From positions 1 through 64,000 of the forward strand of contig JAFUEZ010000020.1 of the NCBI GenBank assembly GCA_017470115.1: 64,000 nt of DNA, given 5' to 3'. Origin of the DNA: Bacilli bacterium. GTDB taxonomy: Bacteria > Bacillota_I > Bacilli_A > RFN20 > CAG-826. Numbering within the stretch: the first letter of the stretch is position 1; the number at the start of each line of letters is the position of its first letter. The notes beneath the pieces were generated by a model. The model worked only from the letters and a program-made list of their open reading frames with translations. It made no database searches and was not told where the DNA came from. This document shows, piece by piece, positions 47,741 through 64,000 of the stretch. A program made the position numbers and the translations under genes.

Positions 47741-47770
47741 TTGACAATATATTTTTTTGTTTGAGATAAT
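47741..47770 (+). promoter_or_regulatory. Strong sigma-A-type promoter
   Basis: A consensus TTGACA (47741-47746) is followed after 18 bases by GATAAT (47765-47770). It drives a leader of about 120 bases before the SipW-type gene at 47897. The leader contains a short GGGA-tagt-CCC hairpin but not a GEMM motif. Confidence 0.75.
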
Positions 47771-47896
47771 TAATTTGCGAAAGAAATTTGAAAGGGATAG
47801 TCCCAATTCCAATCAAGATGGACTTCGTAATTAACTATCATCGAGCAAATGTAGAAATATTTTGTTCTTTTTTTGGTTTTACGGAGGAATTTATAT

Positions 47897-48859
47897 ATGA
47901 AAAAATCAAGAATTATCGCCCCAGCAGCAGCTATCTTAGTATTCTCAAGTGCAGCAGCAGTCACAGGTACTGTCGCATGGTTCACAGCAAGCAGAATTGC
48001 TGATCTAAGTATCTCATCAATTACAGCAGTTAACCCAGAAGCAGGTTTAGTTTTAGAATTAGCACAAATCAATAACGCAGGTGCAACTAAAGTTGAAGAC
48101 AAAGATGAGAGCAATAACGTTATCGGTTACCACATCCAAAATACCGCTTTAAGAGATGCATCAGTTTATGGCACAGATACTTCAGATCCTTTAGTTTATA
48201 AGAGCGTTTTAGATGGCGATGGCGAATTAGATAGTTTTGCTTTAGTAGGAACAAACGGAAAAGCAGATGGTACAAATAAATTAATTTATGGTACAGTTGC
48301 TTCTAAAGATGTTTATTATGCTAATGCATTTGATGCAAATATTACATTAGGTTCAGAAGTTGATACAGAAAATTATCATGTCTTCTTTGATCAAGTTAAA
48401 TCAAGTGCTACAATGACAGGCGCTCAAGCTTCCGGTACAGATAAAGCTTTCAGTAAAGCTTTTAGAATCGGTATGAAGAGTGATGACAATCAATGGATCG
48501 TTTGGGCTCCATTCTATGCTTCAGCAACAACAATCCAAAACGTTACAGGTTTAACAAAAACAGACGTTGCAGCTGTTGCTGATACTTATTCTTTATTTGG
48601 CAATAATGTAGCTAATGCTAGTGGTTCATCAATTTCTGAAACAGAATTAAACAGCACAACAGCAGCAGGCAAAAAAGAATACCTCGGAACACTTGATGGT
48701 TCATTGAACGATGGAGATCCAGACGACAAAGATGTCTTAAAAGTTACAGTTTATACATGGTTCGAAGGTACAGATGAAAACTGTATCAACGAAGCAAAAG
48801 AAATCACAAATACATTCGCTGCAAATTTAGTCTTCAAAGCTGTTAAAAACGCTGCTTAA
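47897..48859 (+). CDS. SipW-dependent exported protein (TasA/camelysin-like), likely abundant subunit
   Basis: This 320-residue protein has a signal peptide of the SipW type: KKSRIIAPAAAILVFSS, then VTGTVAWFTAS near residue 30. The mature part is Ala/Thr/Ser/Asp-rich with no membrane anchor, lipobox or LPXTG, like TasA/camelysin matrix proteins. It is transcribed alone from a consensus promoter, has a CGGAGG ribosome site and ends at a strong terminator. These point to high expression, as for a main fibre subunit. I chose ATG 47897 over 47873 for its ribosome site. Cleavage would need the SipW peptidase at 55.5 kb. Confidence 0.8.
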   Translation: MKKSRIIAPAAAILVFSSAAAVTGTVAWFTASRIADLSISSITAVNPEAGLVLELAQINNAGATKVEDKDESNNVIGYHIQNTALRDASVYGTDTSDPLVYKSVLDGDGELDSFALVGTNGKADGTNKLIYGTVASKDVYYANAFDANITLGSEVDTENYHVFFDQVKSSATMTGAQASGTDKAFSKAFRIGMKSDDNQWIVWAPFYASATTIQNVTGLTKTDVAAVADTYSLFGNNVANASGSSISETELNSTTAAGKKEYLGTLDGSLNDGDPDDKDVLKVTVYTWFEGTDENCINEAKEITNTFAANLVFKAVKNAA

Positions 48860-48879
48860 TCACTAAGAATTGTAGAATT

Positions 48880-48907
48880 AGCTCAGTCTTATGACTGAGC
48901 TTTTTTT
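48880..48907 (+). terminator. Rho-independent terminator
   Basis: AGCTCAGTC-ttat-GACTGAGCT is followed by a run of seven T. Confidence 0.97.
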
Positions 48908-49114
48908 ATTTATTGTGGAGATGAAATTTTAAATATAAAACCTATTATTTAAGCAAAAAATCCATATACTTATTATTTTTATTATATTTAAAATATAATC
49001 TTAAATTTTTATGGCAAAAATACATAATTTAAAAAACTTTTATTTTAAAAAATAATTAGATTGGTTTATAATTATTGCGAGTTTATTTATAAGAAACTTT
49101 TATTTGTGTTGAAT

Positions 49115-49468
49115 ATGAAGAAGAAACCATTATACATAGCATTATTTACATTAGATATTATTGCTACCATATTCTTGTTCGTCGTTAGCATTATTATGCT
49201 TGCTACAATGCCAGCAAATATGGCCGAACTTGAAGCAGGAGAAGGATTTATCAATTACCTTCAAAGAAATCCTACAATATTCCTTGTCGCATTTGTAATT
49301 CCATTATTTTTACTTCTTGCAGGAAACATTGTAATTCTTGTTTGGTACGTTAGAAAAGTCACAGCAGCTAAAAAGGTCACAGTTAAGGATCTTAGCGATG
49401 AAGAAAAAGAAGCTTTGAGAAGAGAATTGCTTAAGGATATTGCTTCAGAAAACAATCAAGAAAATTAA
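49115..49468 (+). CDS. small membrane protein with two helices
   Basis: This 117-residue protein has helices at about 7-29 and 48-70, then a basic stretch and the acidic/basic tail LSDEEKEALRRELLKD. A similar tail ends the SipW peptidase (MSEEDRKRLKEELLNQ). There is no homology to a known family that I can name. The start at 49115 is the first Met directly before the first helix, but the ribosome site is poor; 49061 is the alternative. It lies between the SipW-type subunit and the first riboswitch. Confidence 0.65.
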   Translation: MKKKPLYIALFTLDIIATIFLFVVSIIMLATMPANMAELEAGEGFINYLQRNPTIFLVAFVIPLFLLLAGNIVILVWYVRKVTAAKKVTVKDLSDEEKEALRRELLKDIASENNQEN

Positions 49469-49496
49469 TTTAAATTAATTTAAAAAAATACTTGCA

Positions 49497-49525
49497 TTCA
49501 TAAACCCATTAGTTTATTATATAAT
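49497..49525 (+). promoter_or_regulatory. Promoter of riboswitch 1
   Basis: TTCATA (49497-49502), 17 bases, then TATAAT (49520-49525). It places the RNA start just before the GEMM-I aptamer. Confidence 0.55.
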
Positions 49526-49527
49526 CA

Positions 49528-49600
49528 GTAAAAAGCAAAGTCAGAGTGATCTGGCGGCGCAAAACTAAAGGGTCTTAAAATTGTAAGATAGCCAGTTGCC
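49528..49600 (+). promoter_or_regulatory. Cyclic di-GMP-I (GEMM-I) riboswitch 1
   Basis: The class I aptamer landmarks occur in order. The 5' GCAAAG at 49535 is followed by the P2 hairpin CAGA-gtga-TCTG. Next come GGCGCAAAAC (tetraloop-receptor side) and GGGTCTTAAAA. The closing P3 strand is AGATAGCC, followed by AGTTGCC. It precedes the eight-gene SipW operon, and the aptamer's 3' strand is part of a terminator. Confidence 0.92.
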
Positions 49601-49655
49601 TAGAAAGAGTGATGAAATAATTACTCGTTGAAGATGATAGCAACTGGTTTTTATT
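49592..49655 (+). terminator. Riboswitch 1 expression platform (terminator)
   Basis: CCAGTTGC (49592-49599), part of the aptamer 3' strand, pairs with GCAACTGG (49640-49647), followed by TTTTTATTTT. A smaller hairpin (GAGT/ACTC) sits in the loop. The aptamer and the terminator cannot both form, which predicts that c-di-GMP turns the operon on. Confidence 0.8.
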
Positions 49656-49702
49656 TTATATCTCAGTGGGACACATACGTAATTTATTAAAAAAGAAAGC
49701 AC

Positions 49703-49735
49703 ATGAAAAAGATACTTTTTGTAGTGCGCAGGTAA
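49703..49735 (+). CDS. possible 10-codon leader peptide
   Basis: ATG at 49703 opens a 10-codon frame (MKKILFVVRR) that stops three bases before the next gene's ATG at 49739. Upstream AAAGAAAG is a weak ribosome site. It might couple translation of the operon's first gene, or be chance. Confidence 0.25.
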   Translation: MKKILFVVRR

Positions 49736-49738
49736 TCT

Positions 49739-50569
49739 ATGGTCGAATCGAGATATATTGTTAAAAGAAAAAGGAAAAAGTTTGCTGCTATTATGAGTGC
49801 TATTGCATCTGGTGCGATAACTACACTTGTCATAATTTCTTTTTTAGGCAGGCGTGTTGGATCTTTCACAGTGAAGATGAACAGTAATGAAGTCAAACTA
49901 GCCTTATCTCAAACAAAATCTTTTGACGAAGGAACTACCTACCTAATGGTGGATTCATTGCCTTCATTTGACATTAATGAATATAGTACTTTTGTTAATG
50001 ATGCTAAATTCGATACTGAAGAAACAACATATAAAGATGCTTTAGATATCGATCCTCAAACAGGTAAAGCAAATTCAATTTATTATTTTAAGTATACATT
50101 CTATGTTAAAAATGTTGGTGAGATTCCAGCAAACTACACGATGACCCTTAATATTGCTGATAATGTTAAGCCATCTAATGTTTCTTATGGTTATGATGAC
50201 ATTTTACGTATCAAATTCTATGACAATGAAGCTGATAGTGAAGAACATTCATATGATGATAAGATCTACGCTAAGCGTATTAGAAATGGTGAAAATCAAT
50301 ACACAGATTCAGAAGGCAATCCAATTTATAGTGAATTAATCTATGGAGAAGAAGGGTCTGCGGATTTTGTTGGATATTGTACTAATTTTGAAAATGATAC
50401 AACTATATTCACTAAATTTAGGGAAAATTTTGTTCCTGGAGCATCACGTCGATTCACAATGGTAATGTGGCTTGACGGTAATGATAGTCAAGCCAAAGGA
50501 GATTCGCCAGATGGTGGATCCTTAAGATTGGGGTTGAATATCAATGCAACAGAACACACTGCGCAATAG
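49739..50569 (+). CDS. TasA/camelysin-like exported protein
   Basis: This 276-residue protein has a basic start, a signal helix (about 15-36, AIASGAITTLVIISFLG) and a beta-rich mature part. YTFYVKNVGEIPANYTMTLNI and FVPGASRRFTMVMWLDGND are typical of TasA/camelysin family members. It lacks the AWF/AWY element found at the cleavage region of its neighbours. It is the first gene of the riboswitch 1 operon. The start at 49739 has GCAGG upstream. It overlaps the next gene by 26 bases. Confidence 0.75.
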   Translation: MVESRYIVKRKRKKFAAIMSAIASGAITTLVIISFLGRRVGSFTVKMNSNEVKLALSQTKSFDEGTTYLMVDSLPSFDINEYSTFVNDAKFDTEETTYKDALDIDPQTGKANSIYYFKYTFYVKNVGEIPANYTMTLNIADNVKPSNVSYGYDDILRIKFYDNEADSEEHSYDDKIYAKRIRNGENQYTDSEGNPIYSELIYGEEGSADFVGYCTNFENDTTIFTKFRENFVPGASRRFTMVMWLDGNDSQAKGDSPDGGSLRLGLNINATEHTAQ

Positions 50570-51545
50570 AAATATATATGTATCGGTTGGTGTTTACGTT
50601 TTACTTGTTTTAAGTTTTTCTGGTACCTTAATGGGTACGTATGCTTGGTATAGCTACAATGCTAAAGCCAACTCATCATTCAGAGGAACTGCAGTAAGTG
50701 ATCGTGGCGATTTGAGAATTGGCATATATAGTGAGGCTGAACTTTTAAACGCGGATAGTGTTGAACTCGTTAGAGATAATGACAATCCAAATGTTTACTG
50801 GGGAAATAAAGGCTTAAAGCCAGAACAAATCACTTATTATTTGAAAAGTAACGGTTACGCTACAAACTGCATGAATCCGGTTACAAGCGGCTCTAGAAAT
50901 TATGAAGGCAACTTAAAACTGCACAGTTACCCAACAGCTCTTGATAATTCATTTATTACTTCAACAGCTAAATTAAGTGACTATGTTAAAATTCCGCTTG
51001 TTTTCTCGACTACAGGTGAAACAAATAAATCCAATCTATATATCAATGATGCAAATGTTAGGTCAAACGGAAAATTATCTGAAGCTGTTAGAATTTTTGT
51101 TGATAGCGATTTGACAAATTTTGTTTTTGCCCCAGATATCGCTAACGATAGTTATGATGATGTTGGAGGCATCTTAAATTTGGAATTGAACGATCCATAT
51201 TATGATTTCTCAAGCGGCTATGAATTTCCATATGGCGAATTTGAAAGTTTGGTATATAAAAGCGAAAGAACATCAAGCGAAGTTGAAGTAGACAATCCTT
51301 CAACTTTCAATGCTATTCATAAATCTGGGATTTATGCTATTGATTTCGAAAGTTCTGTAGTTAAAAAATCCTATTTTTATGGTTATGAATCTATTTTTAA
51401 TAAAGAAAAAGCTATTGCTGAAGTTGATGGCGGATATAACATGGTTGATCTAACAATTTACCTTGAAGGATGGAATAAAACACTTGATAATGCTGAAATC
51501 GATCATTTCTTTAATTTAGATTTAACCTTTGAAGTAGGTGCATAA
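50544..51545 (+). CDS. SipW-dependent exported protein
   Basis: This 333-residue protein has a signal peptide of the SipW type (VGVYVLLVLSFSGTLMGTYAWYSYNA). The mature part is Asp/Asn/Ser-rich and ends in LTIYLEGWNKTLDNAEIDHF, a closing motif shared with the next gene (LSIYLEGWDTDNIDS). There is no wall-anchor motif. It begins inside the previous gene and ends 2 bases before the next. Confidence 0.78.
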   Translation: MQQNTLRNRNIYVSVGVYVLLVLSFSGTLMGTYAWYSYNAKANSSFRGTAVSDRGDLRIGIYSEAELLNADSVELVRDNDNPNVYWGNKGLKPEQITYYLKSNGYATNCMNPVTSGSRNYEGNLKLHSYPTALDNSFITSTAKLSDYVKIPLVFSTTGETNKSNLYINDANVRSNGKLSEAVRIFVDSDLTNFVFAPDIANDSYDDVGGILNLELNDPYYDFSSGYEFPYGEFESLVYKSERTSSEVEVDNPSTFNAIHKSGIYAIDFESSVVKKSYFYGYESIFNKEKAIAEVDGGYNMVDLTIYLEGWNKTLDNAEIDHFFNLDLTFEVGA

Positions 51546-51547
51546 AT

Positions 51548-52600
51548 ATGAGAAAAGATAAATTAATTATCGGCACTTTATTTACAATTTCCGCAACTCT
51601 TGTTATCAGTTTTGCAACAACTGTTGCATGGTACGAGAGATCAAATCGACTTCAAGTAACAAATATTGAAATCTCTTTTAGAGGTGAAAAAGATCTTCTT
51701 ATTAGTTCTACACCTGATAACTTTAGAGAAAGTATTAATGATTTCGACTACGATTTTGAATATAAACCAGTTAGTAGTATGTTTTCTTCAAGTTGGCTTG
51801 AATCAAAAGAAACAATGCCTAAATTTAGAAACTCATATGAAGACGTCAAAATCACTGAAGAAGAAAGCTATACACAATCTAGTTTAGCCAGCGAAGGATA
51901 TTTTCAAACTGAATTATATTTGTATTCTAGTAGCAATATATATGCTTCCATTGCACCTGAAACGTCATTTGTTCCAGATGAAGAAAGAAATCGTGCTAAA
52001 GCAGATCAAATATATAGTGAAAATTTAGGTTATACAAAGGAAGAATTAGTAGAAAAACTTAATAAAGTTACTGATGCTTTAAGGGTATCAATCCTTGATC
52101 CAGATGAAGAAAGTTATAGTTATACTATAATTGACCCAAAAAAGAAGGATGAAGAAACTTATTTTTGTGGTAAACTTGATTTAGATAAGGATGGGTATTA
52201 CGATTTTGCAAAAATCGACGGTACAACTAAAGAAATCATTTATGGTGAATATCAAAGCAAAGATAAAATCATTTATGACGATTATAGTGATACTGATTCT
52301 GATTACAAAGAAGAAGGAGAGAGATCAGCATTTAATGCAAGAACAAAACGCAATGTTGATTCATTCAATTTTGAAAGATCAGTTGAAAACGGATTTGTAC
52401 CAGTGAAAGAAAATTCTATTAAATTAGAAAACGCAAATTCAAGTCTCCTTATTCCAGTAAAAGCTAGAGAAGCAAAAAAGATTGTCCTTTCTATTTATTT
52501 AGAAGGCTGGGACACTGATAACATTGATTCAACTGTCGCAGGATCATTTTTGGCAGATATTTCATTCAATATCGGAAGGGATATGGTGGTTAGTTTATGA
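51548..52600 (+). CDS. SipW-dependent exported protein
   Basis: This 350-residue protein has a signal peptide (IIGTLFTISATLVISFA, then TTVAWYERS). The mature region is acidic, with the C-terminal YLEGWDTDNIDSTVAGSF shared in form with the gene before. The two look like paralogous subunits. The stop TGA overlaps the next ATG (ATGA), so it is coupled to the AAA+ gene. Confidence 0.78.
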   Translation: MRKDKLIIGTLFTISATLVISFATTVAWYERSNRLQVTNIEISFRGEKDLLISSTPDNFRESINDFDYDFEYKPVSSMFSSSWLESKETMPKFRNSYEDVKITEEESYTQSSLASEGYFQTELYLYSSSNIYASIAPETSFVPDEERNRAKADQIYSENLGYTKEELVEKLNKVTDALRVSILDPDEESYSYTIIDPKKKDEETYFCGKLDLDKDGYYDFAKIDGTTKEIIYGEYQSKDKIIYDDYSDTDSDYKEEGERSAFNARTKRNVDSFNFERSVENGFVPVKENSIKLENANSSLLIPVKAREAKKIVLSIYLEGWDTDNIDSTVAGSFLADISFNIGRDMVVSL

Positions 52601-54114
52601 GCGCATATTTTGAGTATTTAAGAGAAATGTTTTTAAAGGTAATCGTTAATATTGCCTTATTTATTGCTGACATTTTTGCAGGTCCTTGGTATAGAGTTCC
52701 TGGTGAATTTGCTGAATATAACGACTTATTTTCTACCTATGTTCCAAATTTTGATTTCTTTGGATGGTTCTTTTATGTTTTATTCTGGATCTTACTTGCA
52801 GCACTCGTTGCAGGTGTAGGATATTTACTTTATAGATTTTTTAGACGTCACATTAAATTTGTTAAAACTGAACTTGATAAACAAGCTTTACGTGATCAAG
52901 TCGAAAGATTAAATTACGAACTTTATCAAGCAGTTCAAGAAAGAGATAAGATTTTAAACTTAAAAGTCACAGCTATGGGTTTAAAAATGGATGACTTAAC
53001 AAAAACTGACAAGAATACAGTTGAAGAAGTCGTTTCACGTTTCCCAAAATTAAAATATGTTGATCATGAATATGCAGATTTAGATGTTTCTATTCCTGAA
53101 GTTGAAAATATTTCTCTTGAAGAAATTTGTAATAGATTTAGATTATTTGCCGCAAGTCAATTAAAACTTTATTACACAACTGACACAATCAGACAACTTT
53201 TTGCTGGTATGGCAGCTTCTAAACTCATTATTTTAGAAGGTATCTCAGGTACAGGTAAAACTTCTATGCCTTATGCTTTAGGTAAATTCTTCGATTTTGA
53301 TGCAAACATTTGTTCAGTCCAACCATCATGGAAGGATAGAAGTGAACTTTTAGGTTACTACAACGAATTTACTAAAAAATTCAATGAAACCGAATTCTTA
53401 AGAGCTTTATATACAGCTACTTATAGAAAAGATTTAAATATCATCGTCCTCGATGAAATGAACCTTGCTCGTATCGAGTATTATTTTGCAGAATTCTTAT
53501 CCATCATGGAAATGCCAAACATTAACGAATGGAAAATTGAGTTAATTAATTCTTATGATAATAATGACCCAGAACACGTTAACCAAGGTAAAATTTTAAT
53601 TCCTCAAAATGTTATCTTCTTCGGTACAGCAAATAACGATGACTCAACATTTACAATTTCAGATAAGGTTTATGACCGTGCTATCTCATTGTTCTTCGAT
53701 AACAAAGGTATTCCATTTGATGCTGAATATACAGAACAACTTAAGATTCCTTATTCACAACTTGAAGGTCTCTTCCAAGACGCTTTAAATCAATATCCAG
53801 TTTCAGAAACAATCCTTGCTCAATTCGACAAACTTGATTCATTTGTTATTTCAAACTTCAAATTAGCATTTGGTAACCGTATTTTGAAACAATTAAAAGT
53901 TTTCATCCCTGCATATGTTGCTTGCGGTGGAACCGAACTTGAAGGTTTAGATTTTATCTTTACCAACAAGATTTTAAAGAAGATCGAATCTCTTAATATC
54001 GCATTCTTAAGAGAAGAATTAAAACAACTCAATCTTAAGATTGATGAATTATTTGGAAAAGATACATTTAGAATGGCTCACGCTTACATTAATAACTTAA
54101 TCAAAATGAGCTAA
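52597..54114 (+). CDS. membrane-anchored McrB-like AAA+ ATPase
   Basis: This 505-residue protein has a hydrophobic N-terminal region with one clear helix (about 54-80, FFYVLFWILLAALVAGVGYL) and possibly another at 12-28. A short coiled coil follows at about 85-125. The AAA+ module has Walker A GISGTGKTS at 215-223, Walker B IIVLDEMNLARIEYYFAEFL near 283-300, sensor-1 FFGTANNDD near 340 and YDRAISLFF near 360. The long Walker B helix motif (DEMNLARIEYYFAEFL) is typical of the McrB / AAA_5 group. Classical McrB is soluble and binds modified DNA; this one is tied to the membrane and has no DNA-binding domain. It sits between exported proteins and their peptidase and may drive assembly or export. 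Confidence 0.85.
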   Translation: MSAYFEYLREMFLKVIVNIALFIADIFAGPWYRVPGEFAEYNDLFSTYVPNFDFFGWFFYVLFWILLAALVAGVGYLLYRFFRRHIKFVKTELDKQALRDQVERLNYELYQAVQERDKILNLKVTAMGLKMDDLTKTDKNTVEEVVSRFPKLKYVDHEYADLDVSIPEVENISLEEICNRFRLFAASQLKLYYTTDTIRQLFAGMAASKLIILEGISGTGKTSMPYALGKFFDFDANICSVQPSWKDRSELLGYYNEFTKKFNETEFLRALYTATYRKDLNIIVLDEMNLARIEYYFAEFLSIMEMPNINEWKIELINSYDNNDPEHVNQGKILIPQNVIFFGTANNDDSTFTISDKVYDRAISLFFDNKGIPFDAEYTEQLKIPYSQLEGLFQDALNQYPVSETILAQFDKLDSFVISNFKLAFGNRILKQLKVFIPAYVACGGTELEGLDFIFTNKILKKIESLNIAFLREELKQLNLKIDELFGKDTFRMAHAYINNLIKMS

Positions 54115-54123
54115 TAATTAGTT

Positions 54124-55536
54124 ATGGCAAAAGTCAAAGTAGTAGACAATACTTCGAAATACCAAAAAATTTCAAAGAATTATCAGAAGAAGGTGGAAAG
54201 TTTCATCTCTTCTTCAAAAGGCGCATCGGAATTATACGATGCTTTTTCACATGGTGATACTCGAATTGTAAAGTCTTCTAGAATTGAAAGTGCTAACTAT
54301 AATCCTGAATGGCTCAAAAAAATTGAAGATTGTATGATTGATCTTGGTGAAATCATCAATAATCCTCGTAAAGTTACAAAAACAGAAACAGATATTGTCC
54401 CTATCGAACTTGCTAAAAAAACTAACGATGAATCTGTTAGACATTTAGCAAGTCACTCACAATATGTTAAAAATATTACCGATAAAGGTGATGTTATTCC
54501 TGATAAGATTCTTAATATTGGCGCTGATGATGATTACATTACTTATGAAAATAAGTTTATCGCAACATTAATTAGACGTTTAATTGTTTTCGTTGAAAAA
54601 CGTTATGAATACATTGCTAAAAATACTCCACTTAAACATGTTCAAGTTTTAAAATATAAAACAAGTCAAGCAATTGACGGTTCTTTAATTGAAATTGAAA
54701 CTAAAGTAAGAGTTACTAAAGTCAATACTGAAGTCGTTCCTTCGCTTGGTGAAGCGTATTTAAAACGTATTGAAGAAGTTAGACGTTATTTAAAATATTA
54801 TTACACAACTGATTTCATGAAACTTTTCAAAAATGAAAGAGATGTTCATGGTCAAATTTTACAAACCAATATTATAAGAAAGAATCCAAAATATCACCAT
54901 TGTTATCTGCTTTATAGATTTATTGAAAACTATAGAGATGTTGGTGCTGAATATAACGTAAAAGAAAGTTATAGAGATTTAAACGAAGAAGAAATTGAAC
55001 TTGTTAATCAAACAATTCTTGCTAATTTTTTGGCTGTAAATCCAGAAAATCCTTCTCCAGAAGTTTTTGCAACCGAAGTTAAATCAAAACCACAAATCGA
55101 GCACACACTTGATGATGATATGTTCACATATAGTCCAATTTTGGATCAAAACGTTACATATATTAGAGTTGATGAAAATTATCAACTTGGTTTAGAAAGT
55201 GAAATTGAAGAAATTAGACGTAATCCATCTAGACAAGAGGCTAATTATCAACAACAAGAAGCTGAAAAGAAAAAGCTTATTGAAAAAAGACGTAAAGAAC
55301 GTGACTCTCTTTTAAAAAGACAAGAAAAAAGAGAAAAAGCTTATTTAGAGCGTCAAGCTGAACTTGCTGAAGGAGAACGCAAAAGAATAGAAAAACTTAC
55401 TCGTGAAGAGGAAGAAAGGCGTAGACAGATTCTTTTGAAAGAAATCGATAAAGCTCGTGACGTTCTTAAAACAAAAGCTAAAACTCAACCAAATACAGTC
55501 GTAAAAATTAAGAAAACAGAAAAGAAAGAAGCTTAA
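54124..55536 (+). CDS. DUF2357/McrC-like protein with C-terminal coiled coil
   Basis: This 470-residue soluble protein lies 9 bases after the McrB-like gene. The middle part resembles DUF2357, the family that partners McrB-like ATPases: YENKFIATLIRRLIVFVEKR near 140, and IIRKNPKYHHCYLLYRFIENY near 255. No PD-(D/E)xK nuclease motif follows. Instead the C-terminal 90 residues are a highly charged coiled coil (QEAEKKKLIEKRRKERDSLL). The DUF2357 assignment is my inference from pattern and context. If right, the pair is McrBC-like but without DNA cleavage. Confidence 0.6.
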   Translation: MAKVKVVDNTSKYQKISKNYQKKVESFISSSKGASELYDAFSHGDTRIVKSSRIESANYNPEWLKKIEDCMIDLGEIINNPRKVTKTETDIVPIELAKKTNDESVRHLASHSQYVKNITDKGDVIPDKILNIGADDDYITYENKFIATLIRRLIVFVEKRYEYIAKNTPLKHVQVLKYKTSQAIDGSLIEIETKVRVTKVNTEVVPSLGEAYLKRIEEVRRYLKYYYTTDFMKLFKNERDVHGQILQTNIIRKNPKYHHCYLLYRFIENYRDVGAEYNVKESYRDLNEEEIELVNQTILANFLAVNPENPSPEVFATEVKSKPQIEHTLDDDMFTYSPILDQNVTYIRVDENYQLGLESEIEEIRRNPSRQEANYQQQEAEKKKLIEKRRKERDSLLKRQEKREKAYLERQAELAEGERKRIEKLTREEEERRRQILLKEIDKARDVLKTKAKTQPNTVVKIKKTEKKEA

Positions 55537-55540
55537 TTAG

Positions 55541-56302
55541 ATGAGTGAAAAAACAGTAAAAGAGAAGAAACCAAAAAGCAAACTTCGTAAAACCTTGGAA
55601 TGGGTATTTACAGGTCTTTTTGCTGCCCTTTTAGTGTTTTTTGCCGGTGCTAATATTTATGGTCAAATTGCTGCAAAAGACAATTATGGCGTTCCATCAT
55701 ATTTTGGTTATTCAATCCTTGTTGTTCAAACAGACTCAATGGAACCAGAATATAAAGTAAATAGCACAGTTATCGTTCAAAAGGTTGATTTTGATAAAAT
55801 CAAAATTGATGATGATCTTACATTTTTCTGGACAGGTGATGGTTTAAATTATCCAATGACCCATAGAGTATCAGCGATTAAAACACCAGAAGAAAGTGGA
55901 GATGGACATTATTACTTCACTACACACGGTATTAATAAAGAAAGCAGCCAATGTGCTGGCGATTGTACCGGACAAACTCAATATTTTTCAGATAACTATG
56001 TTATCGGAAAAGTCATTGGAAACTCTGTATTTCTTGGAGGAGTATTTAATTTCCTTACACAATGGTATGGTTTATTAGTTTTGCTCCTTATTCCAGCTGG
56101 TTATTTAATTGTTACATCTATTATGGATATTTCTAGAGCACTTAAGACTGATGAAAACGGAGAAATTATTACAACAGCTCAAAATAATACTGTTCAAGAA
56201 GACAGTGTGCTAAACAATATGAGCGAAGAAGATAGAAAGAGATTAAAAGAAGAACTTCTAAATCAAATGTTAGAGGAAAAAGGTTTAAAGAAAGATGAAT
56301 AA
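55541..56302 (+). CDS. sipW: SipW-type signal peptidase I
   Basis: This 253-residue membrane peptidase has TM1 (about 20-43), the catalytic Ser66 in QTDSMEPEYKVNS, and His108 in MTHRVSAI where bacterial type I peptidases have Lys. This Ser/His pair marks the ER-type (SipW) group. A second helix (about 170-195) follows, then a cytoplasmic tail with MSEEDRKRLKEELLNQ. It should cleave the SipW-type precursors encoded around it. It starts 4 bases after the previous gene and overlaps the next by 8. Confidence 0.93.
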   Translation: MSEKTVKEKKPKSKLRKTLEWVFTGLFAALLVFFAGANIYGQIAAKDNYGVPSYFGYSILVVQTDSMEPEYKVNSTVIVQKVDFDKIKIDDDLTFFWTGDGLNYPMTHRVSAIKTPEESGDGHYYFTTHGINKESSQCAGDCTGQTQYFSDNYVIGKVIGNSVFLGGVFNFLTQWYGLLVLLLIPAGYLIVTSIMDISRALKTDENGEIITTAQNNTVQEDSVLNNMSEEDRKRLKEELLNQMLEEKGLKKDE

Positions 56303-57842
56303 AATTAAGACTTTATTAACTGAATTAATTATTATTGCTTCATTAATTGTTGCGATTATTTTCGTTGTCTCTTTTTTGAGCTTTGCTTATGGAACAAAAT
56401 ATATCGTTATTGATCTAATTTTATTATTTGCTATGGCAGGATTTATAACTCTTGGCGGTTATGTTTTTGCTTTGCTTTATGGTGAAAAGAAGACAATTAA
56501 CAGTTTAAAAAATGAAAACGAATATAACTTAAACAGGAATTATGTTTTCTTTAACTACGATTATTTCACAAGAAAGATTACTTTAAGAAATATAAAAAAT
56601 AAAGATCTTGAAGGTTATATGATTGCTTTCAACTGTGTTAGAAATGTTGATTCAACCACAAAAGCAATCAAGGATGATATTTCGGAACTTAATGGTTGTG
56701 TCGCAGATTATTTGCTTGAAAGAATCAACAATTTTGATAAAAAAGACATCAAGTTTTCATATTTCTGTTTCTATCATGGTGTTTTCTTAGTTTATATAAA
56801 TTGTTCACCGGAATATTTAAATAATTTAATCAACGACATCGAAACAAGGATTTATGACATTTCTCGTGAACATGATTTCAGACTTTATATTCAACCATAT
56901 TTTGGTATTTATGATAGAAGAAATGAAAATGTAGAAGAACATGATGTCATTTATAAAGTTATCAATTATGCTATGACTGCTAGAGAATACGGTTCTCAAA
57001 ACTTTGATTCAGTTACTTTCTATTCCTCAGAATTATTTGGATCAAATATTACAACCGAATTTGAAGCTATTGTTGAAGCTCTTGATAAAAAGGAATTTAT
57101 TGTTTTCTATCAACCAAAATATTCTTTAGGAAAGAAACAATTTATTTCATCTGAAGCTCTTGTTAGATGGCAATCTCCAAAAAATGGATTAGTATCGCCA
57201 ATTAAATTCATTTCAGAAGCTGAAAATGGTGGCTTAATCCATAGAATTGATATGTTTGTTTTGGAACAAGTTTGTAAAGATTTAAATGAAACTAAGCGTA
57301 AGGGTAGAAGGCTTTTACCAGTTTCAATTAACTTCTCAATTTATGAGTTCTACGCTCCAGATTTTGTTGATGATATCATCAACACAATCACTAAATATAA
57401 AGTCAATCCATCATTGATTGAAATGGAAATTACTGAATCTGTTAGTGGTGCAAACTCATTTGTTCCAATTTCAATTATTAAAAAATTAAAAGAATTTGGT
57501 CTAAGAATTTTGATGGATGATTTCGGTGTTGGCTATTCTAATTTTAATAACATTAAAAATATGCCTATTGATGTTCTTAAAATCGATAAATCTTTTATTG
57601 ATAACATCGTTGATGATGAAAAGAGCAGAGAAATCGTTAAACTTTTAATTGATTTTGCTCGTTCACTTGGATTAGAGTCAATCGCTGAAGGTGTTTCAGT
57701 AAAAGAACAAGTTGACATTTTACGTAAATATCACTGCGATACAATTCAAGGATATTTCTATTCAAAGCCTATTTCTAAAACTGAATATGAACAATTTTTA
57801 GCAAATAATCCTTACGAAAAGAAAGGAGTAGTTGAAAAATGA
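56295..57842 (+). CDS. EAL-domain c-di-GMP phosphodiesterase (membrane)
   Basis: This 515-residue protein has two N-terminal helices (about 9-30 and 36-62), a region resembling a degenerate GGDEF (about 80-255, no GGDEF motif), and an EAL domain. Active-site motifs look complete: SEALVRW (Glu287), VSINFSIYEF, MEITES, MDDFGVGYSN, VLKIDKSFI, IAEGVS and QGYFYSKP. It likely hydrolyses c-di-GMP to pGpG. Located in an operon led by a c-di-GMP riboswitch, it may give negative feedback. ATGA overlap with the next gene. Confidence 0.92.
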   Translation: MNKIKTLLTELIIIASLIVAIIFVVSFLSFAYGTKYIVIDLILLFAMAGFITLGGYVFALLYGEKKTINSLKNENEYNLNRNYVFFNYDYFTRKITLRNIKNKDLEGYMIAFNCVRNVDSTTKAIKDDISELNGCVADYLLERINNFDKKDIKFSYFCFYHGVFLVYINCSPEYLNNLINDIETRIYDISREHDFRLYIQPYFGIYDRRNENVEEHDVIYKVINYAMTAREYGSQNFDSVTFYSSELFGSNITTEFEAIVEALDKKEFIVFYQPKYSLGKKQFISSEALVRWQSPKNGLVSPIKFISEAENGGLIHRIDMFVLEQVCKDLNETKRKGRRLLPVSINFSIYEFYAPDFVDDIINTITKYKVNPSLIEMEITESVSGANSFVPISIIKKLKEFGLRILMDDFGVGYSNFNNIKNMPIDVLKIDKSFIDNIVDDEKSREIVKLLIDFARSLGLESIAEGVSVKEQVDILRKYHCDTIQGYFYSKPISKTEYEQFLANNPYEKKGVVEK

Positions 57843-58579
57843 TCTTAATTGTTGGCGGAACAAAAGATGATATCTTATTTTTCGAAACAAAAATAAGAAA
57901 TAAAAAACATGAAACTATTCTTGGCGACACCTATCATTTATTAGTTGGAAATATTTTTGACCAAAGAGTAGGTATTCTTTATAATGTTCATTCTTCATAT
58001 CTAACAACTCTCCTTGTATATGAAGTTATTAAAAAATATCACGTTATTCTTGTTATTAATGTTGGATATGCAGTTAGCTATTTAGATACGATAAAAACTG
58101 GAGATATTGTTTTAATTAAGCAAACATATTTTGGTGATGTTAATTTCACAAAAATGCAACATACTCTCCTTGCACAAATTCCAAGCCAACCACAATTTTT
58201 TGCAAGTGATGGCTATGTTACTCAAATCTTCTCTAAGGTTTTAGATACAATTTTAAAATCACATTATCTTTCAGGTTCTTTAGTAAGCATAAATAAAGTT
58301 CCAGAATCAAAGGAAGACTTGTCAGAGATCTCATTTGAAAACACTGTATTGGGTAGAACAAGTAATGTTTTAGTTGATTCAGAAGGAGCAGGTTGTGCAC
58401 TTGCTGCTCACATAGCTAATGTTCCATTTATTGCCATTAAAGTATGTGAAAGAAACATTGATGATCGTTTAAGTGTTGCTAATTATCTTAAAGTTTTAGA
58501 TAAATATGCTGACCTTGGTAAGGTTGTTACTTCATTAATTGGTGAAGTTTCACGTAATGATGTTAGAATTGGAGAATAA
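57839..58579 (+). CDS. nucleoside-phosphorylase-like (MTA/SAH nucleosidase fold) protein
   Basis: This 246-residue protein has a PNP/UDP-phosphorylase family fold pattern: VILVINVGYAVSYLDTIKTG, GDIVLIKQTYFGD and VDSEGAGCALAAHIANVPFI. The usual catalytic segment RAISDxA reads KVCERNIDD, and the Gly-rich VGxAG reads VGYAVS. The enzyme may therefore be altered or inactive. It is the last gene of the riboswitch 1 operon and is coupled to the EAL gene. Its role there is unknown; a link to nucleotide breakdown products is a guess. Confidence 0.7.
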   Translation: MILIVGGTKDDILFFETKIRNKKHETILGDTYHLLVGNIFDQRVGILYNVHSSYLTTLLVYEVIKKYHVILVINVGYAVSYLDTIKTGDIVLIKQTYFGDVNFTKMQHTLLAQIPSQPQFFASDGYVTQIFSKVLDTILKSHYLSGSLVSINKVPESKEDLSEISFENTVLGRTSNVLVDSEGAGCALAAHIANVPFIAIKVCERNIDDRLSVANYLKVLDKYADLGKVVTSLIGEVSRNDVRIGE

Positions 58580-58717
58580 ATTTTTAATAAAAAATTTATA
58601 GGGAAGTTTGCTAAAAACTCATAGTTGTAAGGAAAAACTATGCAAAACTCATATATTTTTAGTAAAATTCAACAAAATCGTTTGATATATTTATTATCAA
58701 TAAATATTCAAAAAATA

Positions 58718-58746
58718 TTGAAAAAAGATAAGAAGTTATTTATAAT
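58718..58746 (+). promoter_or_regulatory. Promoter of riboswitch 2
   Basis: TTGAAA (58718-58723), a 17-base spacer and a perfect TATAAT (58741-58746). It starts RNA just before the second GEMM-I aptamer. Confidence 0.8.
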
Positions 58747-58752
58747 AACTTA

Positions 58753-58825
58753 GACAAAAGCAAAGCTAGAGCAATCTAGCGACGCAAAACTATAGGGTCT
58801 TAAAAAAGTGAGATAGCCAGCTGCC
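58753..58825 (+). promoter_or_regulatory. Cyclic di-GMP-I (GEMM-I) riboswitch 2
   Basis: The order of landmarks is the same as in riboswitch 1. GCAAAG (58760) is followed by the P2 hairpin CTAGA-gcaa-TCTAG, then CGACGCAAAAC, then GGGTCTTAAAA, and AGATAGCC before AGCTGCC. It controls the second set of SipW-type proteins. Confidence 0.93.
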
Positions 58826-58854
58826 GATATTCATGGAGGCTGGTTTTTATTTTT
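58816..58854 (+). terminator. Riboswitch 2 expression platform
   Basis: CCAGC (58817-58821) pairs with GCTGG (58839-58843), followed by a T-rich run up to the ATG at 58855. The only ribosome site, GGAGG (58835-58839), is in the loop and stem edge. The element could act on termination, on translation, or on both. Confidence 0.65.
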
Positions 58855-59769
58855 ATGAAAGCAAGAAGAGAAAACAAAAATTTAAAAATCATCTGTGCAA
58901 CGTCAGTTGCTATCTTTTCTTTGCTATCAGTTTTCATGGGTACAATTGCTTGGTTTAACGCACAAAGACTTGTAAATGGAGATAATGAAAAAATTAATGT
59001 TCTTACACCAAGTGGAATTTTTAAACAACTCACATTTCATAAACTTGTTAGCGATCCATATGATGATGAATTATATTCATTTAATCAAACTCCTGTTGGA
59101 ACTTTAGTTTGCGATGACTGGGTTAAAAAGACGGTCAAATATACACCAACTGATGCATCTATTAAAACAGTTAAAATGGATAGATATTCAATCCTTGAAC
59201 ATAGACATCCAATGTTACTTTTGATCGAACTTGATAAAGCTTATGACATTAGTAATTTTAATATATCATTAAGAGCTTATACTGATACAATAGGATTTGT
59301 GGGAGATAGGTCTTTAAAAGAAGCGGAAACATTAGTTCTAAATGAATCGGGCAACCCTTTAAGTTCAATTGTCCATTTTGCTACATATGGTTATACACAA
59401 AATGCATTAGAAGCAACTAAAGGAAGATATTCTTCAACAAGCGTTTATCAATTTCCTAAGCCAATTGAAGAGGATAAATCAAAAAATATTAAGGGAGATT
59501 ATAAAGCGTTTACTGACTTTGAAGTAAGCGATGAAAATAATGAAATTGTTGAAATTGATTTTCACGACCAATTTGATTTTTATGTATCAAATGAAGATAC
59601 TTCAAGAAATGTTAAGACCAATGATGATACAACAACTGAAATTAAGTATTTGCCAATCATTATGGATTATTATGATTCAGCACTTGAACATATTTATAAC
59701 ACTTATTTAGGCGAATCAATTTTGGAAAAAGATTTATCATATACATGGGATTGGGAGTTGAAACTTTAG
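58855..59769 (+). CDS. SipW-dependent exported protein
   Basis: This 304-residue protein starts right after the riboswitch T-run. It has a basic start, the helix IICATSVAIFSLLSVF and then MGTIAWFNAQ, a SipW-type signal. The mature part is a beta-rich domain of unknown type, ending in YTWDWELKL. GGAGG is 15 bases from the ATG, a long spacing. One base separates it from the next gene. Confidence 0.77.
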   Translation: MKARRENKNLKIICATSVAIFSLLSVFMGTIAWFNAQRLVNGDNEKINVLTPSGIFKQLTFHKLVSDPYDDELYSFNQTPVGTLVCDDWVKKTVKYTPTDASIKTVKMDRYSILEHRHPMLLLIELDKAYDISNFNISLRAYTDTIGFVGDRSLKEAETLVLNESGNPLSSIVHFATYGYTQNALEATKGRYSSTSVYQFPKPIEEDKSKNIKGDYKAFTDFEVSDENNEIVEIDFHDQFDFYVSNEDTSRNVKTNDDTTTEIKYLPIIMDYYDSALEHIYNTYLGESILEKDLSYTWDWELKL

Positions 59770-59770
59770 G

Positions 59771-61756
59771 ATGAAGAAGAATAAATTTATAGCATTCTTA
59801 ACTACAATTACAGTAACTGTTGTTGCTGCATTTTCAGCTACAGTCGCTTGGTTTAGTACAACAATTAGATTCGGAGATGCTACTGCTGATGTAACTGGTT
59901 ATAGTGATGGTGCTTATTATGATTATGGTTCAGGAACAGCTGATGATCCATATGGTATTCGAACCCCACGTCATTTATATAACCTTGCTTGGCTTCAATA
60001 TTTAGGTTTTTACAACAAGAAAATAAGTGATGAACAAGGCAACGAAAAGCGTGAACAATATTATTTTGAACTCGCTGGAGATGTTGATATGACTGGATGG
60101 ACTATTCCTCCAATCGGAACTACTACATATCCATTTATTGGTGAGTTTAATGGAAATGGATACGTAATTTCCAATGCGAGCACAAGTAATTTATTTAATG
60201 ATTACGAAAGAACCCCTGATATTGTTGATTCAGTAACTGGGGTAGATATCATTGGTTTATTTGGTGTCGTTGGAAGTTTGGATACTGGTGTTACTGACGA
60301 TAACAAAGCATCAGTCCCTCTTACTGACGCTTATGGATCTGCTCCATATGATTCACAAGTAAATAAAATCATTAACTTGGGAATTGAGAATACATCTGTA
60401 TATAGTAAAACAGACAAAACTCTTATTGGTATTGCTGCGGGTTACGTTAACGGCACATTAGATGGAGTAGCTGTAAATAACTCAAATATCTCAATTTCAT
60501 CAACTACGAAACAAGCTTATAATACTGCTTTAACTGAAAATTACTCGGATTATTCTTTGGTTGGCTATGCTACAGATCACTATAAAGGAGCAATTGAAGA
60601 AAAAGAAATTAAAGTTGAAACACCTGAAGCAGAGTATTTAAGTGCAGCAGATGCAGGTGATAATTGGGGTAATTCTATTAATTTCTTGAATGCTTATAAT
60701 AGACTTTTACGTGAAAAGAATACTGTTGGTACAGATTTAAGTGTTACTTATGTTTCTGGATCTTTATATGATACAGATGGAACAACTGTAATTAATTCAA
60801 CAGAAACTACTGTTAATAGGCACAAACTTAACTCCGGATTCGCCAGCTCATTTATTATTACACAAAGCCAAGTTAAAAATTCTGCTAATAAACAAGTTGC
60901 ATCTTACACTTTTTATAACAGAACTAAAACTGAAAGTAGTACAAACCTTGATAATTACATGTATATGTTTGGCGATTATCAGTTCAGCCTTAATACTTCA
61001 AAAATTCAATTAACTGAACCATCTTCGTTCGCAACAGGAACCGCATATTTTATTCATGATAATGATAATCATTATTTAGTGGCGGATGGCGCAACAATTG
61101 AAAATACTACAAAACAAAATTTATTAAATTATACTGGGTTTACTTATACAAATCGTAATTATCTAAGTATTACTAGTGGTAATTATACTTACTATTTATA
61201 TGTAAATAATGGAACTCTTTCATTGAACAGATACAATCAATCTGTATGGTATTACGATAGTTCTAATCATGTTCTTTATACAACAGCAAATAATAGGACA
61301 TATTATTTACATTACTCAAATAACCAATGGGTGGTAAGTGAACTTCCTGATTATGATTCTGTTCAATACATTTTCTCTTTTGTTTACAACGGAAATACCT
61401 ATTATCTTTCTGCTAACGGGACTACTATAGCTGCAAAAACAGGAATCGAAAACGCATTGAAGTTTACTTATGATGACAATGATCATTTTTATACAATTAT
61501 AAATGGCCAGGAGTATTTCTTAAGTGCAACTAGAAGTGGCGGTAGAACATATACATATACATTTGGTTTAAATCTTAGCAGTACAAACAATCTTTCTTAT
61601 ATTTCTTATGATGGACAAAATATGTCTATTTATGCGAGAAACGGAAATGGTATATTCTCTGGCAGTAGCACTTTTATTGTCAATTATAATGGTAGTTTCT
61701 CATTAGTAGCTAATGGCGGAAGCAATGATGTTACATTCAATTATGAGGAAGTATAA
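59771..61756 (+). CDS. SipW-dependent exported protein, N-terminal part of a gene split by TAA
   Basis: This is the 661-residue first part of a large protein. The SipW-type signal is FLTTITVTVVAAFSATVAWF. Residues about 45-140 resemble GLUG-type adhesin segments (GTADDPYGIRTPRHLYNLAW, FIGEFNGNGYVIS). Tyr/Asn-rich beta repeats follow (HYLVADGATIENT, TYYLSANGTTIAAKT). The frame ends at TAA 61754-61756 but continues open in the same frame for another 619 codons. The break looks like one nonsense change, perhaps GAA to TAA, since EEV-E-PTIPDD would read well. Confidence 0.75.
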   Translation: MKKNKFIAFLTTITVTVVAAFSATVAWFSTTIRFGDATADVTGYSDGAYYDYGSGTADDPYGIRTPRHLYNLAWLQYLGFYNKKISDEQGNEKREQYYFELAGDVDMTGWTIPPIGTTTYPFIGEFNGNGYVISNASTSNLFNDYERTPDIVDSVTGVDIIGLFGVVGSLDTGVTDDNKASVPLTDAYGSAPYDSQVNKIINLGIENTSVYSKTDKTLIGIAAGYVNGTLDGVAVNNSNISISSTTKQAYNTALTENYSDYSLVGYATDHYKGAIEEKEIKVETPEAEYLSAADAGDNWGNSINFLNAYNRLLREKNTVGTDLSVTYVSGSLYDTDGTTVINSTETTVNRHKLNSGFASSFIITQSQVKNSANKQVASYTFYNRTKTESSTNLDNYMYMFGDYQFSLNTSKIQLTEPSSFATGTAYFIHDNDNHYLVADGATIENTTKQNLLNYTGFTYTNRNYLSITSGNYTYYLYVNNGTLSLNRYNQSVWYYDSSNHVLYTTANNRTYYLHYSNNQWVVSELPDYDSVQYIFSFVYNGNTYYLSANGTTIAAKTGIENALKFTYDDNDHFYTIINGQEYFLSATRSGGRTYTYTFGLNLSSTNNLSYISYDGQNMSIYARNGNGIFSGSSTFIVNYNGSFSLVANGGSNDVTFNYEEV

Positions 61757-61816
61757 CCTACTATTCCCGATGATATTTATGAAGGTCTTCATGTTTATTA
61801 TAATGGAGTTAATAGC

Positions 61817-63613
61817 ATGAATAGTGATCCATATTTATATAGATCTAATCCAACTTATTTCCCACTTGGCTTTCAATCAAACACTTCAAGCGATGCTGGT
61901 TATAACGAAATTGCTGATAATAATACTGGATACATTGTTTCTGGTGCTAATTATTTGACTCAACCAGGCGACCTTCGTATTTCTAAATATTCGATTAGTG
62001 ATATTTCTAATTCTTTAGGTAATGGTGCGACCAGCTATACTTATAATGAAAGTCAAAAGAATTGTAACTTAAACATTGTCACAAGAAGTGCCGCTAGTAA
62101 TGGCTATAAATTGATTAAGGACGATTATAATCAAAATAATACGACAGTCTCTACTGCTTTAAGTAACCAATTTGGAAGCACAAAATATGATTATAAAACT
62201 ACTTTAGGATTGGCAAAATATGCTGACTCTAGAGAAAACCTACACAAATTATTCAGTGGCGCTTCAAATATTTATGGTTTGCACTTTATGGATTCTCAAA
62301 TCTCAACTTCAAATAAAATTATGATCCCTTATGCAAAAGTTAATCGTAATGAATTTGAAAATTATGAATTGCCTGAAGATTGTGTTGACTTTAACTTAAA
62401 GAGAAAAGGTTATATTAATTTCTTTGCTGGAACATATTTTAACAATAACAAAACATTCTTCTCACTCCACGAAATTCAACGTGATTCAACTGGCACACAA
62501 ATCACAGCAATTTTTGAAATCAGTAAAATTTATAATAATAGCGGATTAAACAGTAAGGATTACCCATACATTTATCTTTATTCAAACGGTAATTATAGCA
62601 TCCCTGTTACTGAATCTAGCGATGCGAAACTTGGCAGTTTAGCTTTTGATATGGAGTGGGTTACAAGTCCGACAGTTGTTGATGATGCTTTATATTATTA
62701 TGAAATTCCAGCATGTGCCGGTGAATATGCATTAGGTTCAGTTAAGAATAAAGATGGTGCTTATTTAATGTATCTGGATATTGGAGCAAGCACTAATTCA
62801 ACTGATGTTACAACAGTTACAGAAAGAATTACGACAATTACAGATAGTTTTGAATTTGTTATTGGTATCGACTTTGTAACAAGTATGCCAAAGATTAAAA
62901 ACGAAAACGAGGAAAACGAATTTGAAGCAATTACTGGTCATGAATCAGCTCTTGTCGTTGTTCCTTCAACAGCAACCGGTACATTAAATTACACAATGTC
63001 AGTCAATCAAACTGATGAAAAGCAAAATACATTAACTTTAAGTGCTGGCACTGACTCATCATTTAGTGGCGCTTTAGCTTCAACATATAGCTCTCTTAAT
63101 ACGACTATTGTTGATAATGTCAATTCTACAAGTATTATTCCAAATCCGATTGAGCATCATGAAGTTATATTGGATAAGATTACATCTTATGAATATAATG
63201 CTGCAACATCAGTTATGGTGGTTGGTGTTTCTAGAAGACTTACAGTAGATGGTGTAAAAGGTCAATGGACTGATGATGATGCAGATGTTAGAGAAGGTGT
63301 AGAAGCGACATATACAAGCGAAGTATCATTAACCAATGTTGGTGATATTATCTTCGAATTTGAATATTCAGCTCCTTCAACAGCAAACATTACTGTTGAA
63401 ACATTCTATCATCCAGAAACGTCACAATATTTCTTTACAATTACTTCAGATGTCGACATTACTATTCACATTACTAAGTTAGTTACTACTTATAATTATG
63501 TTGATGATGGCGGCAATGAACGTTCAGTAACCTATTCATTCTATATTAATAGTGAAGATACTACCGTTTCTCAAGGAGACTACATTAATATTAAAGCTCC
63601 TAGCCAAGGCTAG
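61817..63613 (+). CDS. C-terminal part of the same split gene
   Basis: This region is in the same frame as the gene before, and the 20 codons between the TAA and ATG 61817 are also open. The part from 61817 encodes 598 residues without a signal peptide, so on its own it would not be exported. TGGAG lies nine bases before the ATG, so separate translation cannot be excluded. It contains beta-rich segments and no anchor at the C-terminus. I favour a broken 1280-residue gene, or one read through at UAA. Confidence 0.65.
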   Translation: MNSDPYLYRSNPTYFPLGFQSNTSSDAGYNEIADNNTGYIVSGANYLTQPGDLRISKYSISDISNSLGNGATSYTYNESQKNCNLNIVTRSAASNGYKLIKDDYNQNNTTVSTALSNQFGSTKYDYKTTLGLAKYADSRENLHKLFSGASNIYGLHFMDSQISTSNKIMIPYAKVNRNEFENYELPEDCVDFNLKRKGYINFFAGTYFNNNKTFFSLHEIQRDSTGTQITAIFEISKIYNNSGLNSKDYPYIYLYSNGNYSIPVTESSDAKLGSLAFDMEWVTSPTVVDDALYYYEIPACAGEYALGSVKNKDGAYLMYLDIGASTNSTDVTTVTERITTITDSFEFVIGIDFVTSMPKIKNENEENEFEAITGHESALVVVPSTATGTLNYTMSVNQTDEKQNTLTLSAGTDSSFSGALASTYSSLNTTIVDNVNSTSIIPNPIEHHEVILDKITSYEYNAATSVMVVGVSRRLTVDGVKGQWTDDDADVREGVEATYTSEVSLTNVGDIIFEFEYSAPSTANITVETFYHPETSQYFFTITSDVDITIHITKLVTTYNYVDDGGNERSVTYSFYINSEDTTVSQGDYINIKAPSQG

Positions 63614-63631: not shown

Positions 63632-64000
63632 ATGAAACTTAAAATTTTATCTTTATTTATTCCTTTAATTTTCACACTTGCATCGTGTGATTTTTCACCA
63701 AAGCAAAATAGTGGAGAACAAACTGATACTCCAGATACTCCAGATGTTCCTGATAATCCAGATGCACCAACTCCTGGAGGAGATGATAATCCTGGTGGAG
63801 AAGAAACTCCAGCTGATGATCCAATGAAAATCACTGAACCATATGAAAAAGTTGATGCATCTAAACTTTTAAAATGGGACACAACTCAAGCTAGTTTAAG
63901 AAGTGGAACAAAAACTTTAGACTTTTACAATTTAAATGACACTCATGGTGCAGTTGAAGATATTCCTTCAAATGGTGAACCTGGAATTTCTAAATTATCA
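63632..64000 (+). CDS. 5'-nucleotidase/metallophosphatase-like lipoprotein (partial)
   Basis: The frame from ATG 63632 runs off the window (123 codons seen). It has a lipoprotein signal with Cys19 (FTLASCDF) and then a long Pro/Asp/Gly-rich linker (DTPDTPDVPDNPDAPTPGG). DFYNLNDTHGAVED starts near residue 97. The NDxHG motif is the first metal-binding motif of the UshA/CpdB-type metallophosphatases, which hydrolyse extracellular nucleotides or cyclic nucleotides. No good ribosome site is seen. Confidence 0.75.
   Translation, partial: MKLKILSLFIPLIFTLASCDFSPKQNSGEQTDTPDTPDVPDNPDAPTPGGDDNPGGEETPADDPMKITEPYEKVDASKLLKWDTTQASLRSGTKTLDFYNLNDTHGAVEDIPSNGEPGISKLS

Follow-up and report, generated by a model that had tools for sequence, protein, structure and literature searches.

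The closest described relatives of the system considered here are the CoCoPALM systems, which combine a nucleoside triphosphatase (NTPase) of the NxD form with a transmembrane (TM) segment and a coiled coil, a coiled-coil homologue of McrC, and a signal peptidase (Bell et al. 2024, PMC11090510). CoCoPALM was named there in one paragraph, in which pilus assembly was proposed and the rest was deferred to a later paper. According to the same source, the NxD form typifies one branch of the McrB-like NTPases, and the DUF2357 domain of McrC binds and activates McrB (PMC11090510). A second point of reference is TasA, in which the donor strand begins at residue 28 and uses Phe29 (PMC9674648); an aromatic second mature residue is reported to make TasA a poor LepB substrate (PMC10269814). 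Here, we analyzed a 64,000-nucleotide (nt) stretch (referred to as the window) of a 65-kb contig, JAFUEZ010000020.1, from a 1.41-Mb Bacilli genome that is 96% complete. The region at 47897-63613 encodes exported proteins, an McrB-type NTPase with a DUF2357-type partner, a SipW-type signal peptidase, and an EAL protein, together with two riboswitches for cyclic di-GMP (c-di-GMP). Because an NxD NTPase with a TM segment and coiled coil, a coiled-coil McrC homologue, and a signal peptidase are all present, the locus belongs to CoCoPALM, and it is probably a c-di-GMP-induced surface-fibre (pilus-like) system. The region contains the following features in order (aa, amino acids; ORF, open reading frame).

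47897-48859, plus strand: S1, exported TasA-like protein, candidate main subunit; predicted site ...TGTVA/WFTASR
About 48870-48910: S1's own terminator
49115-49468, plus strand: small protein of 117 aa with two TM helices; C-terminal tail in common with SipW, LS[DE]E.K..L[KR].ELL
49524-49603, plus strand: c-di-GMP-I (GEMM-I) riboswitch 1; Rfam 57.1 bits; 136 nt upstream of S2
49590-49655, plus strand: terminator hairpin, expression platform of riboswitch 1; its 5' arm GCCAGUUGCC is the aptamer 3' strand; z -5.0
49739-50569, plus strand: S2, membrane-anchored or exported, TasA-like core, without the AWF motif
50544-51545, plus strand: S3, exported; predicted SipW-type site GTYA/WY
51548-52600, plus strand: S4, exported; predicted SipW-type site TTVA/WY; full-length homologue of S1
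52597-54114, plus strand: McrB-type AAA+ NTPase, membrane-anchored, with coiled coil
54124-55536, plus strand: McrC N-domain (DUF2357)-type partner with a long C-terminal coiled coil
55541-56302, plus strand: SipW/SEC11-type signal peptidase, Ser66/His108
56295-57842, plus strand: membrane EAL protein, predicted c-di-GMP phosphodiesterase with intact signature residues; PF00563, 1.5e-66
57839-58579, plus strand: putative nucleosidase/phosphorylase-family protein; PF01048, 3.8e-10
58749-58828, plus strand: c-di-GMP-I riboswitch 2; Rfam 61.2 bits; 27 nt upstream of S5
58855-59769, plus strand: S5, exported; predicted SipW-type site GTIA/WF
59771-63613, plus strand: S6, large exported adhesin-like protein; predicted SipW-type site ATVA/WF; ORFs 59771-61756 and 61757-63613

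Between 49739 and 58579, neighbouring genes either share 4-26 bases or lie 2-9 bases apart, and together they form a single operon. S6 is one frame of about 1280 codons interrupted by a single TAA at 61754-61756; because there are homologues of 1195-1298 aa that extend across the two parts, the gene is broken here, through a mutation or an assembly or strain difference. A first-pass annotation of the window had already described the tight packing of the operon, the McrB-like ATPase with a DUF2357-like partner, the Ser66/His108 peptidase, the EAL enzyme, and the nucleosidase-like protein, and each of these agrees with the ORF coordinates and with the family evidence given above and below. It had also listed five intact SipW-type or TasA-like proteins and one split gene. 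All are present, but S2 lacks the AWF/AWY motif, and the broken gene is a single frame with one stop codon.

Both riboswitches, which the first-pass annotation had placed at 49528 and 58753, score well above the Rfam gathering score for c-di-GMP-I (35 bits). As in riboswitch 1, the aptamer 3' strand of riboswitch 2 also forms a terminator-like hairpin (z -2.7). A search of 28 related genomes for c-di-GMP-I riboswitches yielded 60, with at most 6 per genome and 3 in the genome of the window, 2 of which lie in the window. Among the 53 with downstream sequence, a script identified the terminator 5' arm as the aptamer 3' strand in 39, compared with 9.8% when the downstream sequence was shuffled. 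Because the terminator 5' arm is the aptamer 3' strand, the ligand-bound aptamer and the terminator are mutually exclusive, which points to an ON switch design. These data support c-di-GMP control in the ON sense as predicted from sequence, in line with the c-di-GMP induction proposed in the first-pass annotation. GEMM-I switches of both senses exist. If those considered here were OFF switches, the system would be made at low c-di-GMP, and one Bacillus c-di-GMP-I switch has been found to bind its ligand without a change in expression (PMC11218506); however, the mutual exclusion shared by the two window switches and most of the others makes the OFF sense very improbable.

The targets of these 53 riboswitches are the assembly operon (22), an S5/S6-type or other SipW-motif exported gene (23), GGDEF/EAL-type enzymes (5), and other genes (3). 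The third riboswitch of the genome (L156, G000:C15, 2490-2565, minus strand) precedes the gene at 5-2488, which encodes an 829-aa membrane protein; the N-terminus of this protein is similar to that of a 1011-aa EAL-type protein whose gene also follows a riboswitch in the relative G024, and the riboswitch was counted among the five enzyme targets on this basis. In many relatives, the tenth gene of the fibre operon is of the EAL type and encodes about 1020 aa. Scanning seven Mollicutes-related and clostridial loci, we found a c-di-GMP-I riboswitch upstream of S2 in five (Paracholeplasma, zrk2, two other Tenericutes loci, and one clostridial locus), at 53-203 nt. The EAL signature residues are kept in nearly all of 23 relatives, and because the protein keeps them, c-di-GMP would be expected to fall again once the operon is induced.

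The gene set is conserved. Among the matches listed, the relatives of the genome are mostly rumen or gut metagenome-assembled genomes labelled Bacilli, Bacillales, or Erysipelotrichaceae. The NTPase family is present in 91 of 144 relatives, spread over several classes, and the order S2-S3-S4-NTPase-partner-SipW-EAL-nucleosidase is kept in about 24 loci from genomes of many genera. Since this order is kept in >20 related genomes, chance is excluded. Totals from the wider genome collection are lower bounds, to be read as "at least." In a sample of 44 wider loci, each flanked by at least 4 kb in both directions, SipW was present in 44/44, the partner, S2, and a SipW-motif exported protein each in 43/44, the EAL protein in 37/44, and the nucleosidase-like protein in 23/44; in fourteen loci drawn mostly from other NTPase classes, 7 of 181 ORFs had a SipW-type motif. 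At the order level, SipW lies within 6 kb of 39 of the 43 NTPases of the window class, and for 3 of the other 4, the SipW of that genome is on another short contig. The corresponding number for NTPases of a tandem class is 0/20. Of 392 genomes drawn evenly from the phylum, 68 had a strong NTPase match (E at most 1e-120), other classes included, and members among the matches listed include Paracholeplasma vituli, Mycoplasmatota zrk2, and Izemoplasma-like and clostridial genomes. The first-pass annotation had proposed a search across Bacilli for SipW next to the ATPase and a DUF2357-like protein, with relatives lacking the ATPase pair beside sipW as the contrary outcome; the set recurs across Bacilli and beyond with the linkage just described.

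The NTPase has hydrophobic stretches at residues 10-31 and 52-83, followed by a charged coiled-coil-type stretch and the AAA+ domain. Its family profile matches E. coli McrB at 2e-6, and Walker A (G215-T222), Walker B (D286-E287), and N346-x-D348-D349, i.e., the NxD form with a second acidic residue, are invariant in 29 sequences. In the partner family, DUF2357 was matched in 6 of 28 members (best 2.7e-9), and the window partner alone gave no match. The C-terminus of the partner model is one 85-residue helix. No nuclease family match was found in the 28 members, and no nuclease core was found in the secondary structure of the model. A similarity of the partner to PvuII was considered and rejected as a short helix match over only about 31 profile positions. 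A Foldseek search with the partner model gave no significant match.

Resemblance to McrB raises the alternative that the NTPase/DUF2357 pair is an anti-phage defence system, of the type IV restriction or CoCoNuT-like kind, that sits by chance in a surface-protein operon. Its closest named relatives are restriction-like (PMC11090510), and the AAA domain matches the candidate defence family PDC-M26A at 1.3e-35. However, this PADLOC match is confined to the AAA domain, two hydrophobic stretches take the place of any recognisable nucleic-acid specificity domain, and the partner has no detectable nuclease domain. Moreover, the linkage to SipW sets the window class apart from the tandem-class relatives, and the pair is under the same c-di-GMP switch as the exported proteins. 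Based on these observations, we consider a defence function improbable.

The peptidase matches SipW at 2.9e-15, and Ser66 and His108 are invariant across 27 relatives. Because its score against NF046067, the NCBIfam family for Bacillus SipW, is 56.3 bits and the cut-off of 190 is not reached, we refer to it as SipW-type and not as a Bacillus SipW equivalog. The family profile matches human SEC11A at 3e-16, and the peptidase has the Ser/His dyad of the endoplasmic reticulum/archaeal type. A similar C-terminal tail, LS-[DE]-[DE]-x-K-x-x-L-[KR]-x-E-L-L, is found in SipW and in the 117-aa two-TM protein. In its strict form, the pattern occurs in 18/32 small proteins, 13/135 SipW-type sequences, and 6/125 NTPases, and in 0/80 S2 proteins, 0/114 partners, and 1/672 other ORFs. 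Across loci, a changed tail in SipW is accompanied by a changed tail in the small protein. It is a reasonable guess that both tails dock on one cytosolic protein, perhaps the DUF2357-type partner.

The N-termini of S1, S3, S4, S5, and S6 consist of a basic start and one hydrophobic helix followed by the site [GAT]-T-x-A/W-[FY], at which cleavage is predicted. In S1, this cleavage would place Trp at 28 and Phe at 29. In the 1.4-Mb genome, the top two matches to TIGR04088, the SipW-cognate signal, are S1 and S5, both below the cut-off. S2 carries the shared core together with a signal/TM helix. In profile comparisons, S1 matched S4 over the full length (99.1%, 4e-19), S4 matched S2 (97.1%, 6e-11), and S1 matched S2 in the C-terminal EG.D region (96.5%); as judged from these profiles, S1, S2, and S4 are one family. 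Searches of PDB profiles with S2 and S4 gave chance matches only, and no member of the camelysin family (PF12389) was detected in the genome. The S1 model (pLDDT 67.8, pTM 0.71) is nearly all beta after the signal helix, forming a beta-sandwich. When about 1000 chains were re-aligned, the top matches were the TasA fibre (8aur, Z 6.5) and Pyrobaculum bundling pili (7ueg, Z 6.2), followed by FimA variants and a Sulfolobus thread (Z 5.1). The top-ranked matches are strand-complementing fibre subunits, and we regard the TasA-like model of S1 with modest confidence; the first-pass annotation had expected TasA-like jelly-roll folds, and the S1 model resembles the TasA fibre best, at middling Z values.

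The exported proteins could also be separate adhesins or matrix proteins that are exported and anchored upon c-di-GMP induction and do not polymerise. S6 and its homologues form a diverse set of long, adhesin-like proteins, S3-S5 diverge fast, and the fold evidence for S1 is modest. On the other hand, S1 finds its closest structural counterparts among subunits of strand-complemented fibres, and the locus encodes several related subunits along with a peptidase dedicated to them, an arrangement also seen in tapA-sipW-tasA (PMC9674648). We therefore consider a system without a fibre unlikely.

The fibre reading suggests the following mechanism. c-di-GMP would bind both GEMM-I aptamers and block the terminators, which would allow transcription of both the assembly operon and the S5/S6 module. 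Precursors of the TasA-like proteins, with signal helices ending in ...G-T-x-A/W-[FY], would be inserted or exported, and SipW would cut after G-T-x-A; because the second mature residue is aromatic, these precursors are predicted to be substrates of the dedicated SipW-type peptidase. The freed N-termini may then serve as donor strands that complement the next subunit, leading to polymerisation. S1 is the probable bulk subunit, S2-S4 may be base or minor subunits, and S5/S6 may form a large module at the tip or for adhesion. The NTPase, anchored in the membrane and presumably a hexamer as is McrB, would sit at the inner face, with the DUF2357 partner activating it in the way that McrC activates McrB. 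It would act as an assembly motor or gate in which NTP hydrolysis is coupled to the ordering, cleavage, or release of precursors held in the membrane. Finally, the EAL enzyme would lower c-di-GMP and close a negative-feedback loop.

Several observations weigh against this reading. With regard to control, the relative G032 is the sole genome covering the operon 5' end without a GEMM-I, two Oscillospiraceae loci scanned also gave none, and no riboswitch was found upstream of S1. With regard to structure, the fold likeness of S1 is modest, with all Z <8 and a poorly modelled N-terminus; Foldseek gave no match below E 0.001 for this model; and structural re-alignment of the partner with VIA-align gave coiled-coil and mixed folds at Z <6. 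B. subtilis TasA fibres form without such an NTPase, and because none lies near the second SipW cluster of the genome either, a motor is not generally required. The dedicated c-di-GMP-induced surface fibre or matrix system proposed in the first-pass annotation is supported in its c-di-GMP control and conserved linkage, and its fibre is to be read as inferred. We suggest only tentatively, as a possibility somewhat short of even, that the locus represents a new class of Gram-positive/mollicute pilus assembly machine in which a restriction-derived NTPase pair at the membrane drives or gates SipW-processed, strand-exchanging fibres within a c-di-GMP riboswitch regulon.

The second SipW cluster (L176, G000:C23:18000-33000) encodes SipW at 7316-8206 and exported proteins of 189, 301, and 300 aa with FALT/FALY-type sites; it has no such NTPase nearby and is an ordinary SipW cluster. 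A sibling system (L065, G005:C3, 2009-13277) has an McrB-like NTPase of ~610 aa, a weak DUF2357-type partner, ATP-binding cassette (ABC)-transporter-like genes, and many exported proteins with F-[AS]-T-W instead of A-W-[FY]; for NTPases of its class, SipW lies within 6 kb in 27/35. The tandem NTPase-partner-NTPase cassettes (L060, L061, L062, and L066) lie beside giant membrane or exported proteins (1151 and 1670 aa; one with an MBG domain) and are possibly another export or surface machine. Around the window locus, a gene with an HD domain of the HD-GYP type, possibly a sensor, lies just upstream (44734-46518, plus strand), and a GGDEF gene (46548-47468, minus strand) adjoins the locus, as GGDEF genes do at several relatives' loci. 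Directly 3' of S6 is a gene (63632-64000; complete in L031:18181-19749) whose 523-aa product is lipoprotein-like, contains an NDTHG motif, and is perhaps a 5'-nucleotidase.

If correct, this reading would give the barely described CoCoPALM class a concrete job, with TasA-like SipW substrates as cargo, c-di-GMP as the trigger, and terminators as the switch, all encoded in the DNA. It would extend TasA-type proteins to many uncultured gut Bacilli, wall-less relatives of the Mollicutes, and Clostridia; Paracholeplasma vituli 92-19 is a named strain that carries the system. It also describes a riboswitch regulon given almost wholly to one surface system and an apparent reuse of a restriction-type motor for surface assembly.

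The locus shares features with several known systems. With McrBC type IV restriction, it has in common the McrB AAA+ core and the McrC N-terminal DUF2357 domain, but it has a membrane anchor in place of the DNA-recognition domain, NxD in place of NxxD, and no PD-(D/E)xK nuclease was found. Archaeal bundling pili (7ueg) and Sulfolobus threads (7pnb) are strand-complemented fibres that are among the best S1 matches, at middling Z only. Like tapA-sipW-tasA of B. subtilis (PMC9674648) and TasA/CalY/CapP of B. cereus (PMC13082335), the locus has a dedicated SipW-type peptidase and exported subunits of TasA-like kind in which the predicted second mature residue is aromatic. In contrast, no NTPase or DUF2357 protein is described for these Bacillus systems (the term "ATPase" is absent from PMC9674648), and they have SinR control and other accessory proteins, whereas the locus has c-di-GMP riboswitches. 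The likeness to CoCoPALM extends to the shortened NxD with its second acidic residue, the N-terminal TM and coiled coil, described for CoCoPALM as FtsB-like, fused to the NTPase, the DUF2357 McrC homologue with coiled coil (at the family level), and an associated signal peptidase, here an adjacent one of the SipW type. The class of NTPase, partner, and signal peptidase, which the first-pass annotation did not know to be described, was thus already named in 2024. However, the main text of PMC11090510 gives no SipW, TasA-like substrates, c-di-GMP riboswitches, or EAL/nucleosidase genes for CoCoPALM, all of which the locus has. In the literature searched, which leaves most subscription journals outside its coverage, we found no description of this combination of a CoCoPALM set and its DUF2357 protein with SipW and c-di-GMP. 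Relative to CoCoPALM as named, the SipW/SEC11-type peptidase, the TasA-like cargo family with SipW sites, and the c-di-GMP regulon are new here and appear undescribed in that literature.

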